Below, piece by piece: positions 2,095 to 21,452 of a stretch of 23,059 nucleotides of DNA. The notes under the pieces were generated by a model. The model saw only the letters and a program-made list of their open reading frames with translations. It was not told where the DNA came from and did not search any database. Origin of the DNA: a virus; IMG/VR virus record IMGVR_UViG_3300025840_000259, positions 1 through 23,059 of that record; one strand, 5' to 3'. The position numbers and the translations under genes are program-made. Position 1 is the first letter of the stretch, and every line of letters begins with the position of its first letter.

Positions 2095-2636
2095 TCTGAT
2101 AACCTTATTACCCCACAGCCAACTCTGTCGCCTGCATTTCCTGTTTTCAAACTTTCTTCATCACCACCTTGTCCTAAATCATCTACATCAGCATGTACAA
2201 CTATTGCTCTACCTACAACACTTCTGTCGCCGTGTAAATCAACACGTGGTAATACTAAATCTATTTTTGCTACACCGCTGTCATCTGCAACAATGTTACC
2301 TAAGTCTCCCACATGGCCTTCTTTGATGTTGCCATGATCAACTCCGTCTGGATTGTAATGTGGTCCAGCACTGTCGCACCCATTACTTAAATCTCCAAAC
2401 TCATGTATGTGAAATCCATGCTCACCAGGTTCAAGTCCACTGACTTCACCCACTAACAGTGTGGGCTGACCTGGGTTTTGCTTGAACAAAAAATGTCCTA
2501 CAACATCGCCTTCTGTGTGTTCTAGTTCACATTTTGCTTTGATTGTTTGTTCTGCTTCTTGTAAACTTTTAATGCCAGCACAATCACAACCTTTTGCTTT
2601 TGTTCTAGGGCAACTTTTTACTTGTGAAAATTTCAT
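2091..2636 (-). CDS. sodC: Cu/Zn superoxide dismutase
   Basis: A 181-residue protein with both Cu/Zn-SOD signatures: GFHIHEFGD (74-82) and GNAGDRVGCGVI (166-177). All metal ligands of the family appear present: H76, H78, H93 and H148 for copper; H93, H101, H108 and D111 for zinc. The disulfide pair (C87, C174) and the active-site Arg (R171) are also kept, so the enzyme should be active in dismutating superoxide to peroxide and oxygen. Unlike periplasmic bacterial SodC, no hydrophobic signal peptide is visible. The first 30 residues instead hold a Cys-rich basic stretch (CPRTKAKGCDCAG, 9-21) and L-Q-E at 25-27. The start is fused to the giant gene's stop as TAATG, with AAGGGAA as ribosome site. 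Its place among late, probably virion-internal proteins suggests it is packaged rather than purely intracellular (inference). Confidence 0.95.
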   Translation of the reverse strand: MKFSQVKSCPRTKAKGCDCAGIKSLQEAEQTIKAKCELEHTEGDVVGHFLFKQNPGQPTLLVGEVSGLEPGEHGFHIHEFGDLSNGCDSAGPHYNPDGVDHGNIKEGHVGDLGNIVADDSGVAKIDLVLPRVDLHGDRSVVGRAIVVHADVDDLGQGGDEESLKTGNAGDRVGCGVIRLSE

Positions 2637-5600
2637 TATAATGTTCCCTTATTAAGTGTTAATTGTGCCCACTGTTCTCTACCAGCGCCTGCCTGTGTAG
2701 GTATAATACTGATACTTGTGGAATTAGCATGTCCGCTTCTTCTAAATGCTATGAGATCTTCGGGTGTTCTAATCATTGCAGTCTTTCTATTTGGTATATG
2801 CATCAGTAACAGTGCATCAAAATGATCTCTGTCTTGATACCAACGTAAATTTTGTGCTAAGTACATATCTTCTATTGCTGTCAAGTCTTGACTGGTTGCT
2901 ATTGTGTCAATAACAGGACCAGCAAAATTTTCTAAATCCATTACTAACAACTCAGTTGCAATAGCCTTTCTTACTTTCTGATTGTTAACATCTGTAATAG
3001 GTAAATCAATGTTTAATGCTTTCACAAATGCAGGTAATCCTAAACTACCGCCTTTGCCGCCAATGCTTTGCATCACAGTTGGAATACTGTCAGCATACTT
3101 GTCCAATACTGCACGTTTGGCTTTTTGACTGCCGCCTCCATAACCAATACGTCCACCACTGCTTGACAACGCCGCTTTAAGTTCTACTTTGCCGATGCCT
3201 TCAACTTCCAAATCACCTTCACCTTCTGCTAAACGTATTTGATTGCTCAAACATGCAAGAGCATATTCACCTGGTCCTTTTTGTTTCTTACCAACACCAT
3301 AATCTGCTAATGCAATAAATGCATTTATAGCAGTATCGTCTCCAAATACATTCTGGAATGTGTTAATTGGTTGTGCTAATTCATTAAGATTCACAATAGT
3401 ACCAGTAGTTTCTAATCTCTTTAAGAACTTGTTCATGGTACCATAGTCGCTGTCTATGCCGCCAACTATTCTGGTCATGTCTTGTATGACTTTGGCTTTT
3501 TCTTTCTCAGGCATAAGTTCGTCAGCAACACCTGCTTGGAATGCTGTGCCCATAGTAGCATCAATGTGCTCACTGTTGAGCAACTTATATATTCTATCTA
3601 ATATTTGAGCATGTTTTTCATTGCTGGCATCTAACCCACTAATAGTTTTAATAATGTTTTGTTTTTCAGAACCTAAATCATCATACTCGTTGACTGTAAT
3701 ATATCTGTTTTCTTTGAGAGATTGCTTTAATCTCTTTTGATCGTCTTTGTGTAACATACTCATATATCCTTTTACTATATCTCGGAGATCTGCATTGTCG
3801 CCATTTTGTGCTCTGGCATTTTTGAAATCTCTGATCATTGAAGGAACTGGCAACACAAAATAAACTTCCATTTGTGCTTTCAGGTCACTTGCTAGTATAG
3901 GTTCTTTGAGTAACTTTGTCAACTTGTGTATTTTATCATTGTTAGGTACACTTTCATCAATGTCTAATTTTTGCAATGGTAGATCTGTGAAACCACCTCT
4001 GTTGTAAGCATCTACCAGTGCATTGGCTAGTGTAATGTGTGCCGCGCCTAGATCCTCTGCTTTGCCACCTTTCATGCCTACTATGTGTCCTACTTGCCCA
4101 CTTTCGCTTGGTATAACCACAAACTTATCAAACTCTTGTCCTGGTGCAATTTTTCTGCTGGTAGGAACTTCTACTGCTTTGTGGTATTTGTCCTTGCCTT
4201 TTTGTGCTCTGCGTCTATCCAGAGAATGACTCACATCTCCTTCGTTTTTCTTTTTACCTGCACAATGAGCTTTTTGACTAAAGCCTTTTGGATTTGAACA
4301 GTTAATACTGTCTTTGTACTTTTTGCTCCATGCTTCGTTGATTTTTTTGGCATCTACTTTGTCTAACAACTGTAATTTTTCAATAAGCGATAACTTGTCA
4401 AATTTATCAAAAACACTTTCCATATTATTTCTACCTAATGCTAATGCCTGTTGCAGATCTGCAGGTTCGCCGCCACTTTCTTGGTTATAGGCTAATGCTT
4501 TAAGTACAGCACGTTTATAGTTTTCACTGAAATCACCTGTTAAGAATTTGACTAATCCGTTCACATCTGCTTGTACCATATAAAGTTGAATACCATTTCG
4601 CATCATTCCATCAAATAATTCATAGTTGCCTCTGGCTTCAGCATAACTGGTATCTGTGAGTTCGACCCTGCTAATTTCGCCAAGATCAGGATTTGCATAT
4701 ACGGTGGCAACATCGTCGCCTACACTGCCATCTGCATTCTTTCTAAAGTAGTTGCCGCCACTGGATACATAATTTTGTTCAATGTACTGCTTGGCCGCTT
4801 TTACAGAATCTATAAACCTCTGCATACCATAACCATCAATATTGCCTTGAGAACCATCGTTGTATTTGTCTGTAACTTTCTTCAACAAGTTTACACCTTG
4901 ATTATCGACACCAAGATCCAATTTCAAATACTTTGTTAGTTTTGGCCAATTTGCATAATCCCAAATAGTGCTTGAACTTGATTCAGAATAATCCAAAACA
5001 TCTGCTTGTGCAGGAATTTGTCTATCTATACTGTTTGCAAATTTTTCTGCTTCTGCTTCGGCTTTTTTAGCAAGTTCAGGATTGTTTACTTTCCATGATG
5101 CGGCGGAACTTGGCTCAAATGGCTCGCTATATGGTCCGTTAAGTTCTGCTCTGGGTATTAGCGGTCCAAATTTTCCTACGCCTTCTCTGCCATCACCTAA
5201 ATTCTTTGTGAACTCAACCTTTTGTTTTTTGAGTTTGGTTCTTATACTCAGATTGTCATCATTGATGTCGATGTATTTTTCAGAAAGATCATTAAATTTT
5301 ATTTTGTATGTGCTTTCAAATTTTTTCAGCACTGCTTGTGCTTTTTCCCAACGCCAAGTATCTTTATACTGATCAGGGTTTGCTAACATCTTTGATGCTT
5401 GTAATGCAGTGTAGTAGTGTATGTTGGGCATTATCAACAGATCACCATAATCAGTGCGGTGTATGTTGCTGGTTTGCTGAAGAGCTCTTGCAACGTCTTT
5501 TGGTGCCAGGTGCGGTAAGCCTTGTGCAAAACCTTTTTCTGCAAATATATTTCCACCAAAATCAAAGCCATTAATAGTACCAACATATTTCGGGCCATGT

Positions 5601-8600
5601 TTTTTATCAAACTCTTTTTCTTTTTGATCTAACTTGCGTTTTTGATCAATGGCTTTTTGTTGGCTGTCGAATCCTAACTTCTGTGATATCTTGTCAAATT
5701 CTTCTAAGAACTCTTGAATAACATTTAGTCTGGTTTCAACATAACCTCTCACAGCAGGAATTTTGTCATAGTAGTCGCTACCATGTTTCTTCTTATTATA
5801 ATAATACCTTTCAAAAGAATTAGAAATATAACCTTGGATTTGATCTCTCAATCTATGTGCTATAGGATCACCAAACGGGTCTGCTCTAGTGATTGCATCT
5901 AATATATCATTGAGAGCAGTTGCTATTCCTCTACGCATACCCATAAAATCTGGGCCGTCATAGTGATCTTTGAACTCTGTGTTCTCTATGCCTTCACCTG
6001 GCATAATGTCTTCTAACTTATCATCTTCATCACATTTATTCATATCTAAGAGGTACTCAACTAAGTCGCTAATTTCTCTTATAGTATCAATATACAGTCC
6101 TGGATTTTCTTCTCTGATATCTTCTATGTGTTCCCAACGCATTCTCATCTTCTGCAATAATTTACTCATTGCATTTTCTCTATAACTATCATCGTTGGTT
6201 ACAGCAGTGCTATGACCCTTAGCAACTGGGTGATTCCATTCTGGATATGTTTTCAAATGATCAATAAATTTGTTAAGTGCTTTTTTATCTACTGCTGTGC
6301 CGGGCACAAAAATAGCACTTTGATTATAAGAACCTGCTAATGCATGTTTGTGAAATTCTTTGTACTCTCTGCCATAAGTTCTCAACTCATCTAAGAACGC
6401 CGCCAGCCTATCTTCTTTTGACTCTGTGTTAGTGCCACTCATTGCTTGAGCACCCAGTTTAATAAACTGTCTAGATTGCTGACTGTCTTTGATTTCTTTG
6501 CTGTTTACAGCATGCCACATGCCTTGTATAACACGTTCTACTTGTGCATTAGATATATACTCTGGTTCTTTAACAATATCTTTCTTGAACAGTCTATCAA
6601 CACCGTTTTTGACTCTTTGTAAACGTTGCTTAGGCTTGATTTCCATGTGCCTCTCAGCACTAATTTCTATGTCATCAATAACGCCACGTAATATTTTGTC
6701 AAACTTACTATAGTTTAATTCGAATTCTTTAAGTGTGCTTCTCATTGTACCAATCAGTTTGGCATTTACAGGAGCACGGTTGAGATTTTGACTTAAATCG
6801 TAACCTGCTTGAGCGACACTCAGCACAAATGCTTCTTGTGCTTTGTTCAAATAGTATGGTGCTCTTCTGCTGGGTGCAGTGGCTTCAGGCCTAATGTAAC
6901 CTCTGAGTGTTTCGCCTTGTTCTACTTCCTCTATCTCTACTTTGTCGCCTGTGTCTTTTTCGTAATCTGCAATACGTTGTTTCCACTTTTTATCAGCACT
7001 AGGATCTGATGCTTCTTTGTAATTTTTAAGATCTTCAAAAGCACTGGTAAGTCTGTGCATGTACTTAACATAATTGTTTTTTGAGAAAAAGTCTTTCAAC
7101 ATATTCAACGCAGGATGTTCAATTTTACCCTTTACTCTTTCCTCATCGTCTGCAGATATCTTGCCAACACTGTTAATCAATCTAAACAATGCTTTTACAT
7201 AGTCACCTTGATATGCATCGTCATCGTGTCCTGCATATAATGTTGTAGCATAACGCACAACTGCTTTTGTAATAGTGGAGAAATCTCTGTGATAGTCACT
7301 GCCGCCACCAATTCGGAATTCTATCAATTGATTTTTTGTGTTGCTGTCGCGTTGATCTTTGAAATTTATAGAACTAAATTTGTCAGGTGATATGCCTTGC
7401 ATTAAAATATGTTCTATGTTTTTAATTGTTTTTATGTTGTTAGGATCTGATTTTAACTTGTATGCTAATTTTTCTAATCCAACCATTTGACTTTTTGCAT
7501 AACTGTTGCCTTTTCTACCAAATGTACTGAGTAGATATTTGTCACCTAACAGCAAGGCTAACTTGACTTTGTTCACAGTAAGATTATCGCCGTATCCGTC
7601 TTGGTTTTTACCTGCAAAACTCATGGTAACGTGCAAGCCTGTTGAATTGTTTGTTTCTACATTTTCGTTTTCAAACCAAGTAAACAGTTTTTTCATTTCT
7701 GTTAACATTTCACGTGGTGAACTATAAACTGGAGAAATGATCTCTGCACCTGTGCCATAACTGTCAATGGAACTGTCTGATTCTACACGCCAATATGATT
7801 GACCACTGCCATAATAACTGTGGTAGTCACCCCATTTAACTTGGTCGAATTTGCTGTTTTCGTTAGCCCAAGTTTCCATGTAATCAGCAACTGTGCCTAG
7901 GCCGCCGCCACCATCTGGATTGCTTAGATAGTGTCCATATTCACTTAAACAACTGTTCCAACTGCCGTATTCATAATTTGCCCAACGATCTATGTCATAA
8001 TCATCTCTGACATCGTCATAGGCTCTGTCCATTGCTTCACCAGAATCTCTGATTTCTTCTTCTAGGTACTCAATGAAATCATCCATCAATTCTTCTTCGA
8101 CATACTGACGACCCCAATTCATAAAGTCCCAATCTTCATATTCTTCTTGATCTTCTTCTGGTAAGTCATCTAGTATGCGTTCTTTGTAGTCTTCAATGTC
8201 GTCTTCGCTGATTTCATTTTCTATGTACTCATTGAGATAGTATTCGTCTTCTTTGCGTTCGTTTACTATTTCATTAACAAAATCGCCTTCGCGTTCCATT
8301 GCTTGATCTGATACCCAATCTTCGTATGCTTGTTCAATTTCTCTAGAAGCACTGCGACCTTCTTGATCATCCAGCATTTCTTCGATATCATACCAACTGT
8401 AGTCATCTAACCAGTTCTCATCATCGCCGCCACTTATGCCTTCCCATGATGTTTCTGCCTCAAAGCCACAGTTGATAGGCATGTCTAATGCTTCTTTGGC
8501 AATTGATTTTTTATTGAAGTTGATTTCAAACAGTTGCTCTGAACCTTGTTCTATGAGTTTGTTTTTGCGAATAAGTTTTTTGATCTTTTTGTGTAAGCGG

Positions 8601-9031
8601 TTCTTTTTGTCTTTTTTGTTAAGCAGTTTGTTTATTTTACTACTGCTTTCTTCTGCGTATTCTGGATTTGCAACATTTAATTCATCGTCTGCATCTACTA
8701 CAGAATATTTTTTATTCTTTGGGTTTTGCACAACAACTGCATCAGGCTTTGGCCCATCGCCTATTGGTGTTTTAACAATGCCTAACTCGTCGCCTCTGTC
8801 ATTATAATATACTTCGCCTTGTCCTATTTCGCCAGCCTTAGCAGGAACAAATTCTTGTTTAGGTGTAGTTGGTTTAACTCCTGTTGTTACTGGACTTGAT
8901 TTAGGAGGGTTAACTGTTGGACTTTTTGCACTTCTATTTACAGTGCCGCCTTTATTATATGTAGGTGCACCTGGTGTAGAACCATATTCTTTTAATATAT
9001 GCTCAATAGTTTTTATGCTTCTAAACTTCAT
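2636..9031 (-). CDS. Giant 2131-aa virion-type protein: amidoligase-like plus nuclease-like
   Basis: The largest gene in the window. The N-terminus MKFRSIKTIEHILKE ends in L-K-E (13-15), a candidate head-targeting/cleavage site, followed by a Pro/Thr-rich linker (17-60) and a basic stretch (132-160). Residues 186-600 look like an amidoligase (ATP-dependent carboxylate-amine ligase fold): CGFEAE (188-193), GTGAEIISPV (427-435), NNSTGLHVTMSF (461-472) and IEFRIGGG (570-577). The domain is interrupted by a very acidic insertion (200-350). Residues 1574-1596 are a Cys cassette (INCSNPKGFSQKAHCAGKKK). Near the C-terminus E1922, D1940 and E1950-x-K1952 fit a PD-(D/E)XK nuclease core (GDLEVEGIGKVELK). 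The middle 1000 residues are helical and unrecognised. It overlaps its neighbours at both ends (ATGA and TAATG). Probably an internal head protein; both enzymatic assignments are motif-level. Confidence 0.85.
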   Translation of the reverse strand: MKFRSIKTIEHILKEYGSTPGAPTYNKGGTVNRSAKSPTVNPPKSSPVTTGVKPTTPKQEFVPAKAGEIGQGEVYYNDRGDELGIVKTPIGDGPKPDAVVVQNPKNKKYSVVDADDELNVANPEYAEESSSKINKLLNKKDKKNRLHKKIKKLIRKNKLIEQGSEQLFEINFNKKSIAKEALDMPINCGFEAETSWEGISGGDDENWLDDYSWYDIEEMLDDQEGRSASREIEQAYEDWVSDQAMEREGDFVNEIVNERKEDEYYLNEYIENEISEDDIEDYKERILDDLPEEDQEEYEDWDFMNWGRQYVEEELMDDFIEYLEEEIRDSGEAMDRAYDDVRDDYDIDRWANYEYGSWNSCLSEYGHYLSNPDGGGGLGTVADYMETWANENSKFDQVKWGDYHSYYGSGQSYWRVESDSSIDSYGTGAEIISPVYSSPREMLTEMKKLFTWFENENVETNNSTGLHVTMSFAGKNQDGYGDNLTVNKVKLALLLGDKYLLSTFGRKGNSYAKSQMVGLEKLAYKLKSDPNNIKTIKNIEHILMQGISPDKFSSINFKDQRDSNTKNQLIEFRIGGGSDYHRDFSTITKAVVRYATTLYAGHDDDAYQGDYVKALFRLINSVGKISADDEERVKGKIEHPALNMLKDFFSKNNYVKYMHRLTSAFEDLKNYKEASDPSADKKWKQRIADYEKDTGDKVEIEEVEQGETLRGYIRPEATAPSRRAPYYLNKAQEAFVLSVAQAGYDLSQNLNRAPVNAKLIGTMRSTLKEFELNYSKFDKILRGVIDDIEISAERHMEIKPKQRLQRVKNGVDRLFKKDIVKEPEYISNAQVERVIQGMWHAVNSKEIKDSQQSRQFIKLGAQAMSGTNTESKEDRLAAFLDELRTYGREYKEFHKHALAGSYNQSAIFVPGTAVDKKALNKFIDHLKTYPEWNHPVAKGHSTAVTNDDSYRENAMSKLLQKMRMRWEHIEDIREENPGLYIDTIREISDLVEYLLDMNKCDEDDKLEDIMPGEGIENTEFKDHYDGPDFMGMRRGIATALNDILDAITRADPFGDPIAHRLRDQIQGYISNSFERYYYNKKKHGSDYYDKIPAVRGYVETRLNVIQEFLEEFDKISQKLGFDSQQKAIDQKRKLDQKEKEFDKKHGPKYVGTINGFDFGGNIFAEKGFAQGLPHLAPKDVARALQQTSNIHRTDYGDLLIMPNIHYYTALQASKMLANPDQYKDTWRWEKAQAVLKKFESTYKIKFNDLSEKYIDINDDNLSIRTKLKKQKVEFTKNLGDGREGVGKFGPLIPRAELNGPYSEPFEPSSAASWKVNNPELAKKAEAEAEKFANSIDRQIPAQADVLDYSESSSSTIWDYANWPKLTKYLKLDLGVDNQGVNLLKKVTDKYNDGSQGNIDGYGMQRFIDSVKAAKQYIEQNYVSSGGNYFRKNADGSVGDDVATVYANPDLGEISRVELTDTSYAEARGNYELFDGMMRNGIQLYMVQADVNGLVKFLTGDFSENYKRAVLKALAYNQESGGEPADLQQALALGRNNMESVFDKFDKLSLIEKLQLLDKVDAKKINEAWSKKYKDSINCSNPKGFSQKAHCAGKKKNEGDVSHSLDRRRAQKGKDKYHKAVEVPTSRKIAPGQEFDKFVVIPSESGQVGHIVGMKGGKAEDLGAAHITLANALVDAYNRGGFTDLPLQKLDIDESVPNNDKIHKLTKLLKEPILASDLKAQMEVYFVLPVPSMIRDFKNARAQNGDNADLRDIVKGYMSMLHKDDQKRLKQSLKENRYITVNEYDDLGSEKQNIIKTISGLDASNEKHAQILDRIYKLLNSEHIDATMGTAFQAGVADELMPEKEKAKVIQDMTRIVGGIDSDYGTMNKFLKRLETTGTIVNLNELAQPINTFQNVFGDDTAINAFIALADYGVGKKQKGPGEYALACLSNQIRLAEGEGDLEVEGIGKVELKAALSSSGGRIGYGGGSQKAKRAVLDKYADSIPTVMQSIGGKGGSLGLPAFVKALNIDLPITDVNNQKVRKAIATELLVMDLENFAGPVIDTIATSQDLTAIEDMYLAQNLRWYQDRDHFDALLLMHIPNRKTAMIRTPEDLIAFRRSGHANSTSISIIPTQAGAGREQWAQLTLNKGTL

Positions 9032-9306
9032 CGGTTTAACATTCTCAATCTGCGACTTGCTGAATTAAACTTTTTAGTCCTCTGCGACTTCCTTGCCATT
9101 CTATTGCCAAATTTTGCTTTATTACGTTTTAATGTGATACGTTTTTTCATGTTAATAGGCGCACTACACTGACTTGCAGTTGCTACAACACGACCTTTAC
9201 GTCTACCACTGGTACAACGCACTGCTCTAACAATTTTATTTCCTCTCTTGCGCCATACCATTCTGGCTTCAAGTAAATTTTCTTCTGTTAGTTGTTCGTA
9301 CTTCAT
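9028..9306 (-). CDS. Short basic protein with two-Cys cassette
   Basis: A 92-residue, strongly basic protein. The ATG at 9306 is chosen because it overlaps the previous gene's stop (ATGA) and gives MKYEQLTEEN, with L-T-E at 6-8 as a candidate capsid-targeting/gp21-type cleavage site. A longer in-frame start would overlap the upstream gene by some 80 bases. Residues 29-58 hold VRCTSGRRKGRVVATASQCS and following, with Cys 31 and 47; then comes an Arg/Lys-rich tail ending NSASRRLRMLNR. This cassette resembles one I recall as a separate ORF or a domain in many marine T4-like phage proteins; its function is unknown. Basic character and location suggest a DNA-binding internal head protein (inference). 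Confidence 0.8.
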   Translation of the reverse strand: MKYEQLTEENLLEARMVWRKRGNKIVRAVRCTSGRRKGRVVATASQCSAPINMKKRITLKRNKAKFGNRMARKSQRTKKFNSASRRLRMLNR

Positions 9307-9562: not shown

Positions 9563-9967
9563 CTATAATAATTCTTGTTTTGTAAATTCCATATTGATAG
9601 AATTTTTTGTATCTATAGTGCCAATATTTAACACTATTCCGTCGAGCTCGTTTTTAAGTGTATCAATTGTATGTACATCTTCCCTTTCAAAAGCAAACTT
9701 AAAAATCCAACCTGCTCCTGTTAAACTTGGTGCACCAAAATTCTCTAAAACATTTGCACCAACACCATTTAGTTCTATCGGGTTGTTCATTACAACAGGC
9801 TGAGCTCTTAATCCTATAACCTGTACAACACTTTCAAAATCTTTCTGTGTATTATCGGCATAATTACCTGTGCGGGTAATGTCCAATGTAGTAAACAATG
9901 AATAAAACTGAATATTGCCTGATACAACTTCAGAACTTCCCATTGCTCCGCTTCTTTGTCCAACCAT
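9563..9967 (-). CDS. Conserved small phage protein, probably structural
   Basis: A 134-residue protein starting MVGQRSGAMGSSEVVSGNIQ. This ATG (9967) is preferred to longer in-frame starts because CAGGAG lies just upstream and a late promoter octamer (9995-9988) precedes it, so upstream codons would fall in or before the promoter. Composition is mixed beta, Gly/Asn-rich, without Cys or membrane segments. It lacks the M-K...[I/L]-x-E start seen in its operon partners, which suggests a different place in the virion. First gene of the 9967-1 late operon. I do not recognise a named family; a tail or head structural role is plausible from context only. Confidence 0.8.
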   Translation of the reverse strand: MVGQRSGAMGSSEVVSGNIQFYSLFTTLDITRTGNYADNTQKDFESVVQVIGLRAQPVVMNNPIELNGVGANVLENFGAPSLTGAGWIFKFAFEREDVHTIDTLKNELDGIVLNIGTIDTKNSINMEFTKQELL

Positions 9968-9987: not shown

Positions 9988-10002
9988 TATTTATCATAAA
10001 TA
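9988..10002. promoter_or_regulatory. Bidirectional late promoter TATTTATCATAAATA
   Basis: A nearly palindromic 15-base site giving GATAAATA on the minus strand (9995-9988, for the 9967-1 operon) and CATAAATA on the plus strand (9995-10002, for the sulfotransferase-like gene). The two octamers share one base pair. Each lies about 20 bases from its start codon. Confidence 0.65.
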
Positions 10003-10021: not shown

Positions 10022-10999
10022 ATGATAGACAACAGAATTCAATCAGCCAGTAGTGTTGAATTTTTTTATAGTAAAAACAAAGACACCTGGTATGCTATAC
10101 CGTTACGTAACGGCTCTTCGTTATTCAGAGATATACAATTACATCTCACGGATATAGAAACTTCCCACACTATGGATATAACAAGCCGAGATATTTTTAT
10201 CAAGTATAAAAAATCTAGATTTGTATTTTTATATCGCAATCCTATTTTGAGATATGCATCTGCCTGTACTTTTTTACAACATAAATCTATTGAAATATAT
10301 AAATTGTATGAAGAACAGGTTAAATGGGATGAAATTACAAAAGAGAACATAGGTAAAGCACATGAAGAACTGGGTGCTGATCCTGATGGATTGTTTTATA
10401 ATTTCAGTTTTCACGATCCACATTTTATTCCAACAGTTTTTACACAACTTTTTTACTCCACCCTAGTAGATAATTACCAATTTGTACACATAGACGACTA
10501 TTCAGATTTTTTACTTGAAGAATTTAACACTAGACTTGAAGATGGAATCTCAGCAACTGGTGAACCACTATTAAAATTAATTGAGAAACGAAAGGAAAAT
10601 AAAGAATGTTTTTCAAAGAGATTGTATAAAAATTTTGTTACTTTTTTACAAACACCAAACGAAAAATTTAGATTGAATACAAAGCCATTAGAAAATCCGG
10701 GTTGCACATTGAATGATTATCTATACCCTGATATTGTTATGCACAAGTATCTCAACAAATACAAAGGTGTTAATAGACAACATAACATAGAACACATTGC
10801 CCGAATGCTTAGAATGTATCCTTATACTTTTTGGAGGTCAGCAGTTCATGCTGTAAAACTAATTGAGTTCTATGACATTGTTGATGAAAGGATCAAAGAT
10901 GCACTAGACAGTGCATATTCTAATTTAGAAAAATGTATACTTGATCACAGTATTAATACAGACTTATACAAAGTTTTGTCAAAAGAAAAGGGACTATAA
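10022..10999 (+). CDS. Sulfotransferase-like protein
   Basis: A 325-residue protein, one of only two plus-strand genes. The pattern WYAIPLRNGSSLFRD (23-37) sits where sulfotransferases have the 5'-phosphosulfate loop, and FVFLYRNPILRYASACTFL (67-85) resembles the 3'-phosphate-binding signature (R72, P74, R77, S80). The canonical Lys of the first loop is not evident (Leu28 or Arg29 in its place), so activity is uncertain. The remainder is helical, rich in Tyr/Phe/Lys, with no signal peptide. AGGAT precedes the ATG and a plus-strand CATAAATA sits at 9995-10002, giving late expression divergent from the 9967 operon. Its stop lies within a hairpin that also serves the convergent gene. Could modify a host or virion polysaccharide (inference). 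Confidence 0.75.
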   Translation: MIDNRIQSASSVEFFYSKNKDTWYAIPLRNGSSLFRDIQLHLTDIETSHTMDITSRDIFIKYKKSRFVFLYRNPILRYASACTFLQHKSIEIYKLYEEQVKWDEITKENIGKAHEELGADPDGLFYNFSFHDPHFIPTVFTQLFYSTLVDNYQFVHIDDYSDFLLEEFNTRLEDGISATGEPLLKLIEKRKENKECFSKRLYKNFVTFLQTPNEKFRLNTKPLENPGCTLNDYLYPDIVMHKYLNKYKGVNRQHNIEHIARMLRMYPYTFWRSAVHAVKLIEFYDIVDERIKDALDSAYSNLEKCILDHSINTDLYKVLSKEKGL

Positions 11000-11327: not shown

Positions 11328-11335
11328 TATTTATC
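11328..11335 (-). promoter_or_regulatory. Late promoter of MAQA protein 1
   Basis: GATAAATA on the minus strand (extended GATAAATATA), 34 bases before the ATG at 11294 and just after the palindromic terminator of the previous gene. Confidence 0.7.
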
Positions 11336-11705: not shown

Positions 11706-11713
11706 TATTTATC
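11706..11713 (-). promoter_or_regulatory. Late promoter of MAQA protein 2
   Basis: GATAAATA on the minus strand, 48 bases before the ATG at 11658, in the gap between the late operon and this gene. The predicted transcript would start at the foot of a hairpin. Confidence 0.7.
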
Positions 11714-12324: not shown

Positions 12325-13874
12325 ACCATTTTCCTAGACCAAAATTTTTCTATTTTAGAAATACTTGGCTTACTAACGTATTTATCAGTTTTTGGTTTTG
12401 GTTTTGCTGTTGCTTTAGGCTTTGCCACAGGTTGGTTGATTGCATCAAGTGATATTAATAATTCACTGCCCCTGCCTGTGCCACCACCAATTACACGTAA
12501 TTCATTTTGAAAACGTCTAACTAGTGCTCTACGATTTTGATCGTTGAGTCTTGGCCAATCTAGCACAGAACGTCTCCAAGTTTTATACCTACCATCGGTG
12601 ATATTGAGTTGTGACTCTAATCTAAACAAGTATGTGGTAAGTTCACTGCCATCAACATAGTCTCTTTGTATTTTACGTAAGAAATTGATATGTTTATCTT
12701 TGCTGAATTTTAATCTGTCTAAAAAGTTTTTGCTGTTTACAGGATCTTTGATATTAAAATTATCATTATCAGGGTGACATATTTGGTATGCTAACAAGTA
12801 CATATCTGTAGCATGTGTTCTAAACAGTGCATAAGTGCTGTATTGTGCTGTAGCACTTGCATATTGCTTTGCTGTTTTGTTAAAATCTTTATCTAAGTAC
12901 AGCATAGCCATAATTAAATTGTTCAAGTACATGAGATTAGCAATGTCTCTGCCTGTAAGTGTTGCAAAACGTCTTGTACTTCTAAACAGTCTTGATTCAC
13001 ACAATTCACTGTCAATTAATTCAAAACCTTCGTTTGTAGGCCATGGACCCCAATCCTGATGCTTTTGAATGAGTTCTGTAACTTGTTCGGCTGTGTATGT
13101 TTTAATATTGCTTGGGTCTGCTATACCATAATACAAATCTTTTTGTACACCGTTTCTGAACATTTTGCCCATCTCGCCTTTGTGGTTATTACTAAGGTCC
13201 CAAACCATGTTGCCTTTTTCTACCCAGGCATGTCCATATGGTTTTCCTATGCCTGGACCTCCCAGTCTAGGTAAAATATCTGCATGTACCAATGTTTTTG
13301 TTCTGTCTTTGAACAGCACTTCTTTTGCGGCCGCTTCATAACAATCACCATCTGCTCTAACATTTTCTGGTAACAATTTTGCTCGAGTATTTCTATCACC
13401 ATTGTAAATATTGTCAAACTCAATGTCCTGCCTTGTGTTTTTATCAAATCCTACAACTCTGTTTCCTGCCTTTTGTTTGAGATTCTGCCATACTTTATTT
13501 CCTGCAGGTGTTTGACTAGTAAAACTATATAGTGGTTGTTTGTATGCTTTACTGACTGCCAAATAAACAGGCACTGCAAAACCTCTGCCTGTATACTGAT
13601 TATGCACTGCTACATTTTTAGTCATCCAACCATCCAGATGTTTTTGAAGAACTAGAAGAAATATTGGATTATCTTGATCTAGTAAAAATACAATTCGCAC
13701 AGTGCCATTGTCATACACTTCATTGTTAGGAAGTCCTGGTATAGATGACAGTTTTATGTATCCATTTTCACCAAATGGTTGACGTCCGGATGCTTCTTGA
13801 TATTTGTCAGTGATGTAACTGCTATCGTTATTGCCGTAAGGCTTTTCTTGATATATTTCAGAAATTAAACTCAT
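12321..13874 (-). CDS. GNAT-like plus cysteine-peptidase-like fusion
   Basis: A 517-residue protein starting MSLISEIYQE, with I-S-E at 4-6. Residues 55-140 recall a GNAT acetyltransferase (beta strand TVRIVFLLDQ, VAVHNQYTGRGFAVPVYL at 88-105, SQTPAGNKVWQNL at 120-132), although the acetyl-CoA loop is loose. Residues 172-230 carry a Cys-His-Asp arrangement: DGDCYEAA (C178), YGHAWVEKG (H215) and MVWDLSNN (D226), as in papain-like or transglutaminase-like folds. The last 220 residues are helical, with a basic Pro/Lys tail. Both neighbours overlap by four bases (ATGA), so it is translated within the late operon. It may act on host or virion proteins after delivery; neither activity is proven. Confidence 0.8.
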   Translation of the reverse strand: MSLISEIYQEKPYGNNDSSYITDKYQEASGRQPFGENGYIKLSSIPGLPNNEVYDNGTVRIVFLLDQDNPIFLLVLQKHLDGWMTKNVAVHNQYTGRGFAVPVYLAVSKAYKQPLYSFTSQTPAGNKVWQNLKQKAGNRVVGFDKNTRQDIEFDNIYNGDRNTRAKLLPENVRADGDCYEAAAKEVLFKDRTKTLVHADILPRLGGPGIGKPYGHAWVEKGNMVWDLSNNHKGEMGKMFRNGVQKDLYYGIADPSNIKTYTAEQVTELIQKHQDWGPWPTNEGFELIDSELCESRLFRSTRRFATLTGRDIANLMYLNNLIMAMLYLDKDFNKTAKQYASATAQYSTYALFRTHATDMYLLAYQICHPDNDNFNIKDPVNSKNFLDRLKFSKDKHINFLRKIQRDYVDGSELTTYLFRLESQLNITDGRYKTWRRSVLDWPRLNDQNRRALVRRFQNELRVIGGGTGRGSELLISLDAINQPVAKPKATAKPKPKTDKYVSKPSISKIEKFWSRKMV

Positions 13875-15139
13875 GATCCTGGCTTGCCTGTTCCAAAGTT
13901 TATTCTGCTAAACTCTAATCTATCAACTAACTTTAATCCGTTGCCCATTCTATCGATTGCAACAAAACCTTCGTCGTTGGTAACACGGAACTCATCGCCA
14001 TCTTGTGCAAACTTTTGCATGCCACTAAGTGCATTAAGTTTTTGCACAATAATCACCTTTGCATGTATAATTTTCAAATACAAATCATATACTGCTACAA
14101 TTTCCTTGGCGTGTTCTTTGATAAATTTTACACCTGCAATCATTTTCTCTGTTTTAGCGTCTTTGGTTTCTTGTCTCTTAACTTTGTCTATTTCTTTTGT
14201 CCAGTAACCAATATATTTTTGCACAAAGCCATTGGCAAAAACTTCGGGTTCGTCAAATGCTCCTGCACGTATTGCATTGTTTACATGTGCTTTTAGTTGA
14301 GGCAAGAATTCTTCTACTTCATTTTTACCTGATTCTAACCAAGTAAATGTGCTCCTGTCTATCTGCTTTAGATAACCATTTGCTGTTGTAATAGCATTTA
14401 ACACCGTAGCACTTTCTTCATCAGTCATACTCACTGTGCCACTGACATCATCTATTGTGGCATCTGCTAACCAAATATCACTAGAATTACCCAGTGACTT
14501 AGCATTGAAACCAAAGTTGGCTTGCATGTCATTTATTGTAGGACCACCAGTGTATTCAGTGTGCCACACAATGCCCATTTCTGTTGACTGTATCTTTTTT
14601 GCTAGTTCGCTGTCTTTGGGTATAGCATACATAATTGTGTTTGGCTTGAATGCAATAAGTTTTTCACCTTCCCATTCAAGTTCTTGTAAGTCTTCTTTGC
14701 TGTACATAAAGTCGCCTTGTACAACTCTGCCATTCCAATTGAGTTTACCAAGTTTTGCTAATGCTAATTTTAATTTTTTATTTAGACCTTCTGCAGGGTG
14801 ATTGTTGTCAATATCTCTGCCGGTGAAATTCAGTTTGGGTGTTTTGGCAAACACACCTTTTGTGCCTACAAAGAATCTGTTGCTCTGTGGATCAATACCT
14901 GCAATGATAGCAGGAGCACCGTCCCACTTTAATGTCATATTAAACTTTTGTTTGCTGTTGCCTTCCAGCATTTGGTGTAAACTGTACAAGTAGTCTATGG
15001 CTTCTTTGGCACCTGCATACCCTTTGTTGAAGATGTGGTCTTCAAGGTGCTCCATGTGAGTATTTTGCTCTGCTTCAGCAAGAAAACTCTCACTTAGTAA
15101 TTTTGTTATTAAGGGTTTTGAGACTTCAACAAACTTCAT
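13871..15139 (-). CDS. Nucleotidyltransferase/RNA-ligase-like protein
   Basis: A 422-residue protein. The leader MKFVEVSKPLITKLLSESFLAEAE contains two [I/L]-x-E sites (LSE 15-17, LAE 20-22). The core resembles polynucleotide ligases and other covalent nucleotidyltransferases: motif I LKWDGAPAII (70-79) with K71 as candidate adenylated lysine, a motif III-like VVQGDFMY (139-146), and a motif IV-like GEKLIAFKPNTIMYAI (158-173). Proteins with this KWDGAP pattern are common and uncharacterised in T4-like marine phages. Residues 230-422 are helical. AAGGTAG lies before the ATG. It could seal or cap nucleic acid, or AMPylate; being in a late operon with a targeting leader argues against a normal replication role (inference). 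Confidence 0.8.
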   Translation of the reverse strand: MKFVEVSKPLITKLLSESFLAEAEQNTHMEHLEDHIFNKGYAGAKEAIDYLYSLHQMLEGNSKQKFNMTLKWDGAPAIIAGIDPQSNRFFVGTKGVFAKTPKLNFTGRDIDNNHPAEGLNKKLKLALAKLGKLNWNGRVVQGDFMYSKEDLQELEWEGEKLIAFKPNTIMYAIPKDSELAKKIQSTEMGIVWHTEYTGGPTINDMQANFGFNAKSLGNSSDIWLADATIDDVSGTVSMTDEESATVLNAITTANGYLKQIDRSTFTWLESGKNEVEEFLPQLKAHVNNAIRAGAFDEPEVFANGFVQKYIGYWTKEIDKVKRQETKDAKTEKMIAGVKFIKEHAKEIVAVYDLYLKIIHAKVIIVQKLNALSGMQKFAQDGDEFRVTNDEGFVAIDRMGNGLKLVDRLEFSRINFGTGKPGS

Positions 15140-16369: not shown

Positions 16370-16377
16370 TATTTATC
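16370..16377 (-). promoter_or_regulatory. Late promoter of the 16342-11734 operon
   Basis: GATAAATA on the minus strand, overlapping the helicase stop codon (AAGTGATAAATA), 28 bases before the GTG of the first late gene. It resembles the T4 late consensus TATAAATA with G at the first position, as in the other copies in this window. Confidence 0.7.
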
Positions 16378-21444: not shown

Positions 21445-21452
21445 TATTTATC
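21445..21452 (-). promoter_or_regulatory. Late promoter-like octamer at structural gene
   Basis: GATAAATA on the minus strand (GATAAATATA), ending five bases before the ATG at 21439. With T4-like spacing the transcript would begin at or next to the ATG, so this copy would give a leaderless mRNA or is not used. Confidence 0.45.

Follow-up and report, generated by a model that had tools for sequence, protein, structure and literature searches.

An amidoligase-like domain and a likely nuclease module behind a candidate head-targeting leader in a giant protein from an uncultured T4-like phage

The window analysed here, a 23,059-nt (23-kb) fragment of a phage genome with many minus-strand genes, derives from an uncultured T4-like phage that encodes a giant protein of 2131 aa, and this protein is interpreted, with moderate confidence, as a late-expressed, head-targeted "polyvalent" protein that would enter the host together with the phage DNA. 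In agreement with an earlier note on this DNA, the list of open reading frames places the gene at 2636-9031 with an ATG start, and it lies on the minus strand, running from 9031 to 2636, as do the other genes of its transcription unit described below. The window also encodes a DnaB-type helicase, a primase and ThyX, the helicase being closest to those of the Pseudomonas jumbo phages PA5oct and MIJ3 (52%).

A single scan of viral contigs revealed 162 stretches encoding relatives of the giant protein, ruling out a chance ORF, and 150 ORFs of the loci retrieved, with duplicates counted, matched a family profile. The complete members range from approximately 1450 to 2470 aa and occur besides shorter variants. 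This family is large and common in environmental phage contigs, has no name, and had previously been essentially invisible, since the whole protein gave no usable match in Pfam, PHROG or NCBIfam and a single remote homologue, restricted to the amidoligase part, was found among 50,697 phage records, in the Agrobacterium phage Atu_ph07. Searches of the phage records by tblastn with three C-terminal variants of the giant returned no match, and no relative was confirmed in bacterial genomes.

The N-terminal part of the protein carries an amidoligase-like domain with the probable fold of GS/GCS-type COOH-NH2 ligases (residues ~186-600, 7232-8476), delimited by means of sequence and model. The motifs GFEAE (189-193), GAEIISPV (428-435), TGLHV (464-468) and EFR (571-573), from which an amidoligase had been proposed, were all present, and 15 positions were invariant in 59 aligned relatives, namely G189, E191, A192, E193, E417, D419, E430, P434, H467, T469, R506, E571, F572, R573 and R593. 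When these were compared with the motif definitions of the superfamily (GhExE, the strand-2/3 acidic residues, [HD]x[NH] and Ex[RK]; PMC2588565), the strand-1 GhExE (Ex[EH]) motif was recognized in G189-F/W-E191-A-E193, with the G, E, A and E preserved in 59/59 and the F in 56/59, the strand-2 and strand-3 acidic residues in E417, D419 and E430 (59/59, on or beside predicted strands), and the strand-6 Ex[RK] motif in E571-F-R573 (59/59), with D579 placed 6 residues past R573 instead of the 3 of the superfamily motif. The strand-4 [HD]x[NH] motif was replaced by H467-[VI]-T469, with T in 59/59 relatives, while Atu_ph07 presents HIN at this point. This HxT takes the place of one canonical metal/phosphate contact and, therefore, ligase activity is not assured and the chemistry may be altered.

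In terms of profile searches, PF12224 (Amidoligase_2) was matched by 27 of the 59 relatives, the best at 2.2e-7, and by the giant of the window at 0.035, below the curated cut-off. The Atu_ph07 protein AUZ94978, which exceeds this cut-off (5e-7), matched the giant at 3e-9, and the alignment of the domain profile with it by hhalign reached 99.3% (E=2e-20); a sequence search of the PDB with domain profiles gave nothing relevant. The AlphaFold model of the domain (pLDDT 83, pTM 0.56) retrieved from the PDB, by Foldseek, glutamine synthetases at the top, followed by YbdK and PafA, the top hits being almost all of this fold; the scores are weak (E 0.009-0.08, TM ~0.2, best probability 0.96), though the hit list is consistent. 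The proposed domain is thus upheld by sequence and weakly by fold, with one motif changed: the homology of residues ~186-600 to Amidoligase_2 is supported, a common fold is probable, and the domain is named amidoligase-like, as a homologue with a putative ligase activity.

The claim that a very acidic insertion splits the amidoligase pattern was confirmed as well. This insert (residues ~198-405, 7817-8440), placed between core strands 1 and 2, comprises ~208 residues predicted to be all-helical, of which 33% are D or E, with a net charge of -55 that varied from -46 to -61 across all 68 aligned relatives. A 606-aa relative in locus L149 was devoid of the insert, and in L145 the amidoligase-like part was found as a separate 736-aa protein.

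The domain is preceded by a Lys/Arg-rich stretch (residues ~130-166, 8534-8644, 38% K+R) and followed by a middle region (residues ~690-1560, 4352-6964) with scattered invariant W, R, H and Y residues, and no recognised domain was found between residues 690 and 1600. This interval also includes a Cys-motif peptide, AWSKKYKDSINCSNPKGFSQKAHCAGKKK (residues ~1564-1597, 4241-4342), common to cyanophage proteins. This short basic Cys-containing peptide (NCSNPKGFSQKAHCAGKKK) recurs in otherwise unrelated cyanophage proteins (window 4241-4342; L010:5548-6669; L011:5989-6144; L109), one of which is just 52 aa long, while the gene of another is close to that of the P-TIM68 major capsid protein. L109 also contains a second motif, similar to DUF5872.

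Beyond the middle region, a junction module, xDLKxQMxxY..P.P.M...F (residues ~1690-1760, 3752-3964), marks the point after which the C-terminal types change. In the window it is followed by a type A cassette (residues ~1790-2131, 2639-3664), in which conservation and the structural model delimit a PD-(D/E)XK-like core, GPGE1922...GD1940...E1950-L-K1952...R1961 (3122-3319). The motif GDLEVEGIGKVELK, on which a nuclease core had been suggested, was found at 1939-1952, with E1950 and K1952 correctly numbered. Among 26 C-terminal sequences with mutual identity below 80% and a median pairwise identity of 25%, G1919, E1922, E1950 and K1952 were invariant (26/26), and D1940 was kept in 24, the other two resembling a one-column alignment shift. 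The type A model (pLDDT 80 over the C-terminus, ~78-86 around the core residues) placed E1922 in a helix and D1940 and the E-x-K on consecutive strands, in the order helix, strand, strand, strand, and this predicted order of elements fits the alpha-beta-beta-beta-alpha-beta core. Foldseek comparisons of this model revealed no significant match in the PDB and, in BFVD, only three unnamed uncultured phage proteins. The suggested nuclease core is therefore strongly conserved as a signature and fits in its strand order, but it matched no solved restriction-endonuclease fold, so the assignment rests on sequence, by which the module is likely a DNA-cutting domain.

Of 39 complete relatives examined, 27 carried type A, seven carried type B, five ended just after the junction module and one could not be resolved; the similarity between the two types is confined to the junction module. 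In L145, the amidoligase part and a type B module were encoded by two adjacent genes, and in L104, L109 and L110 the leader was joined to the C-terminal module with no amidoligase. As judged from these arrangements, the C-terminal module is an exchangeable cassette, and the conserved N-terminus with an exchangeable C-terminal effector, a feature of polymorphic toxins, is found here as type A, type B or no cassette after the junction. The type B C-termini (L023, L036, L042-L044, L057, L080) present an invariant D...GISSKGGxGA, and this module, unrelated to type A, is possibly another nuclease.

The protein opens with a putative leader, MKFRSIKTIEHILKE followed by YG (residues 1-17, 8981-9031), with an L-x-E-Y as in the cleavage sites of T4 gp21. 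This prohead protease cuts after L/I-X-E, and T4 leaders have 10-19 residues (PMC9026906). The pattern [L/I]xE[Y/F] was held by 62 of 64 distinct leaders, so that the short propeptide ending in L/I-x-E of T4 capsid-targeted proteins is present; the L/I-x-E-Y was kept while the adjoining stretch varied, and the leader was retained on the amidoligase-less relatives L104, L109 and L110. Moreover, Peptidase_S77, the family of gp21-type prohead proteases, was encoded in the contigs of two relatives (E 3e-27 and 4e-28). A generic version of the leader pattern was not clearly enriched genome-wide in a 250-kb relative (8/31 vs 16/107) and, therefore, the leader claim rests on orthologue conservation. 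The capsid-targeting leader proposed in the earlier note thus gained indirect support from the leaders, the protease and the late-promoter motif described below, packaging itself being a prediction.

The motif GATAAATA, located at 9988-9995, precedes the transcription unit of the giant and appears, from its sequence distribution, to be a T4-like late-promoter motif of this phage group. It was defined post hoc, after the classic motif had failed, and was then checked on the whole genome of a relative; the classic T4 late promoter TATAAATA was absent from the window and rare upstream of the relatives. The window holds six copies, all on the coding (minus) strand (9988-9995, 11328-11335, 11706-11713, 12379-12386, 16370-16377 and 21445-21452), and, by a hand count, 59 of 65 relatives carry a copy that precedes the giant by ~960-1040 nt, although these sequences are related to each other and do not represent 59 separate events. 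Of the 50 copies in the 250-kb relative, 44 were followed by an ORF start within 150 nt, vs 8.7% of random positions, and the genes preceded in this way include some that resemble, by eye, those for the portal, tail sheath and fibres. Between GATAAATA (9995-9988) and the window edge, the minus strand showed no terminator-like site. The unit begins with a gene at 9563-9967 (MVGQRSG...), includes, immediately before the giant, a small basic protein (MKYEQLTEENLLEARMVW...RCTSGRRKGRVVATASQC, 9028-9306) that is also upstream in 20/20 relatives, and extends to a 319-aa protein that runs off the window edge (3-959). The small basic protein (9028-9306, RCTSGRRKGRVVATASQC) itself presents a leader-like start, MKYEQLTEENLLEA.

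Two further genes of this unit follow the giant. A Cu/Zn superoxide dismutase (SOD) gene (2091-2636; PF00080, 3e-44) overlaps its stop codon, and a ParB-like protein with an INGHHR motif and a leader-like MKLNEFFREGD is encoded at 961-2094 (phrog_620, 7e-5). The homologue of the latter in L007 matched ParBc_2 at 4.7e-4, below the cut-off of that family, and tblastn with the ParB-like protein gave no match in the phage records. Among 49 loci with a readable flank, the SOD gene was directly downstream of the giant in 29 and the ParB-like gene was downstream in 40. Both were fused to the C-terminus of the giant in L058 (2472 aa) and L084 (2404 aa), which is the strongest indication that these parts act together. 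In L042, the gene directly downstream of the giant unites SOD, ParB-like and further neighbouring domains in one second giant of 1414 aa, indicating that domains move between genes in this operon. The SOD of the window carries an N-terminal Cys extension (SCPRTKAKGCDCAG...).

Other observations were made in the surroundings of the unit. A DUF6267 protein (13871-15139), upstream of the giant in 20/20 relatives, has a leader-like N-terminus (...SESFLAE followed by AEQ), and its KWDG motif is reminiscent of nucleotidyltransferase ligases; PA5oct gp257, considered as its orthologue with mass-spectrometry evidence, was rejected for showing no similarity. At 10022-10999, a lone plus-strand ORF of 325 aa lies in a low-GC (31%) stretch inside the minus-strand region and looks like an insertion, and its RNPILRYAS faintly recalls sulfotransferases.

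The earlier note makes no mention of the minus strand, of the SOD and ParB-like domains encoded beside the giant or fused to it, of the swappable C-terminus or of the late promoter. Multi-enzyme proteins injected by phages and conjugative elements form an already described class, the polyvalent proteins (Iyer et al. 2017, PMC5512222), so that the earlier description of the giant as a new kind of ejected effector was overstated. The giant resembles these large phage proteins, predicted to be packaged and injected, in joining unrelated enzymatic domains in one polypeptide (amidoligase-like and PD-(D/E)XK-like, with SOD and ParB-like added by the L058/L084 fusion), in the presence of ParB-like domains and in the occurrence of the same domains either fused or as separate genes; for the giant, packaging and injection are predicted. 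It differs from them in its T4-type leader and in combining a constant N-terminus with C-termini that can be exchanged, a layout that the survey attributes to secreted toxins and not to polyvalent proteins; unlike in polymorphic toxins, a phage leader takes the place of the trafficking domain. The giant is thus similar to known polyvalent proteins with a T4-type leader added, and the words "amidoligase" and "superoxide" are absent from the text of the survey (PMC5512222). The T4 internal head proteins (Alt, IPI-III) share with it a short leader ending in L/I-x-E, a T4-like late promoter and a T4-type protease, the latter in relatives, but the leader of the giant has ~15 residues, the residue after the cut would be Y and not A/G, and its cargo, presumably packaged, exceeds 2000 residues with two enzyme-like domains.

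In the context of its individual domains, the giant shares with Amidoligase_2 (PF12224)/GCS2/YbdK, PafA and glutamine synthetase homologous sequence, the GhExE, the strand-2/3 acidic residues, the strand-6 ExR and the top fold matches, and differs in its H-x-T, its ~208-residue acidic helical insert and its embedding in a giant protein. The closest homologue in a cultured phage, the 500-aa AUZ94978 of Atu_ph07, with Amidoligase_2 above cut-off, is encoded near the portal and major capsid genes, within a cluster of virion-protein genes (CDS 170-215, the homologue being gp196 by numbering offset); in contrast to the giant, it is a stand-alone protein with an MRWQDIS start without LxEY, keeps HxN and has no nuclease module. 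With the PD-(D/E)XK superfamily the C-terminal core has in common an E located in a helix and, on predicted strands that follow one another, a D and an ExK, which stay constant across divergent members, whereas it is distinguished by the large helical insertion that follows and by giving no significant structural match.

The preferred reading starts from what can be read in the DNA itself, that is, the gene, its family and domains, the conservation of its motifs, the operon, the fusions and the promoter motif. Transcription from the T4-like late promoter GATAAATA would produce the giant together with the Cu/Zn SOD and the ParB-like protein, as the sequence supports. The leader would then dock the giant in the prohead core, where a gp21-type protease would cut after L-x-E, as suggested by the motif and by the protease of the relatives, and the giant would be packaged with the genome and later ejected. 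Once in the host, the amidoligase-fold domain may act on a host protein or metabolite by forming, or perhaps breaking, an amide bond, and the PD-(D/E)XK-like module may cut nucleic acid, with the DNA of the host or of a competitor as the most likely substrate; these two activities and their targets are predicted from the invariant catalytic residues. More speculatively, the acidic insert may serve as a docking or DNA-mimic arm.

The leader and the late promoter, as well as a ligase of the GS fold that could act on capsid proteins and Lys-rich and Cys-motif segments that are common to a cyanophage gene adjoining the major capsid gene, would also suit a protein that helps to build or assemble the inside of the head, such as a scaffold or inner-body component, whose enzyme-like domains act in the prohead, for example by crosslinking or tailoring head proteins, and which is not an injected effector. 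This is considered unlikely, since the putative-nuclease residues and the SOD and ParB-like proteins of the same unit fit host takeover better and relatives carry a different C-terminus or none. Somewhat less probable still, the giant could work only within the cell, in phage replication or counter-defence, and never enter the virion, its leader being just an interaction peptide. The conserved neighbourhood with primase and DnaB-type helicase and the weak genome-wide signal of the generic leader pattern speak for this, but the late-promoter motif at the start of the unit and the conservation of L/I-x-E-Y beside a variable stretch argue against it, as does PA5oct, one of the nearest cultured relatives by helicase, in which a virion-structural cluster adjoins the helicase region.

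A further alternative concerns the amidoligase-like domain, which could be dead or repurposed for binding or hydrolysis, the giant being mainly a carrier of the C-terminal module. It is doubtful, although somewhat more credible than the preceding ones: H-x-T stands for [HD]x[NH] in all 59 relatives, and there is a precedent in Dop, a hydrolase related to PafA (PMC7947786), but the other acidic and Arg residues of the core never vary, as they would in a functional enzyme, and the amidoligase-like part stands on its own in L145.

In the head-targeted polyvalent protein favoured here, a T4-type leader and a late promoter are combined with an amidoligase fold, a nuclease signature, a Cu/Zn SOD and a ParB-like domain, which makes injected modular multi-enzyme cargo of T4-like phages a directly testable idea, while GATAAATA can serve to recognize the late genes of this group of phages. 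In its boldest and quite improbable form, marine T4-like phages would inject a giant that tags host proteins through an ATP-dependent amide bond, as an analogue of pupylation by PafA, while a swappable nuclease cuts host or rival DNA and the co-delivered SOD protects the takeover. If this were true, these phages would possess a single modular delivery platform with interchangeable warheads.
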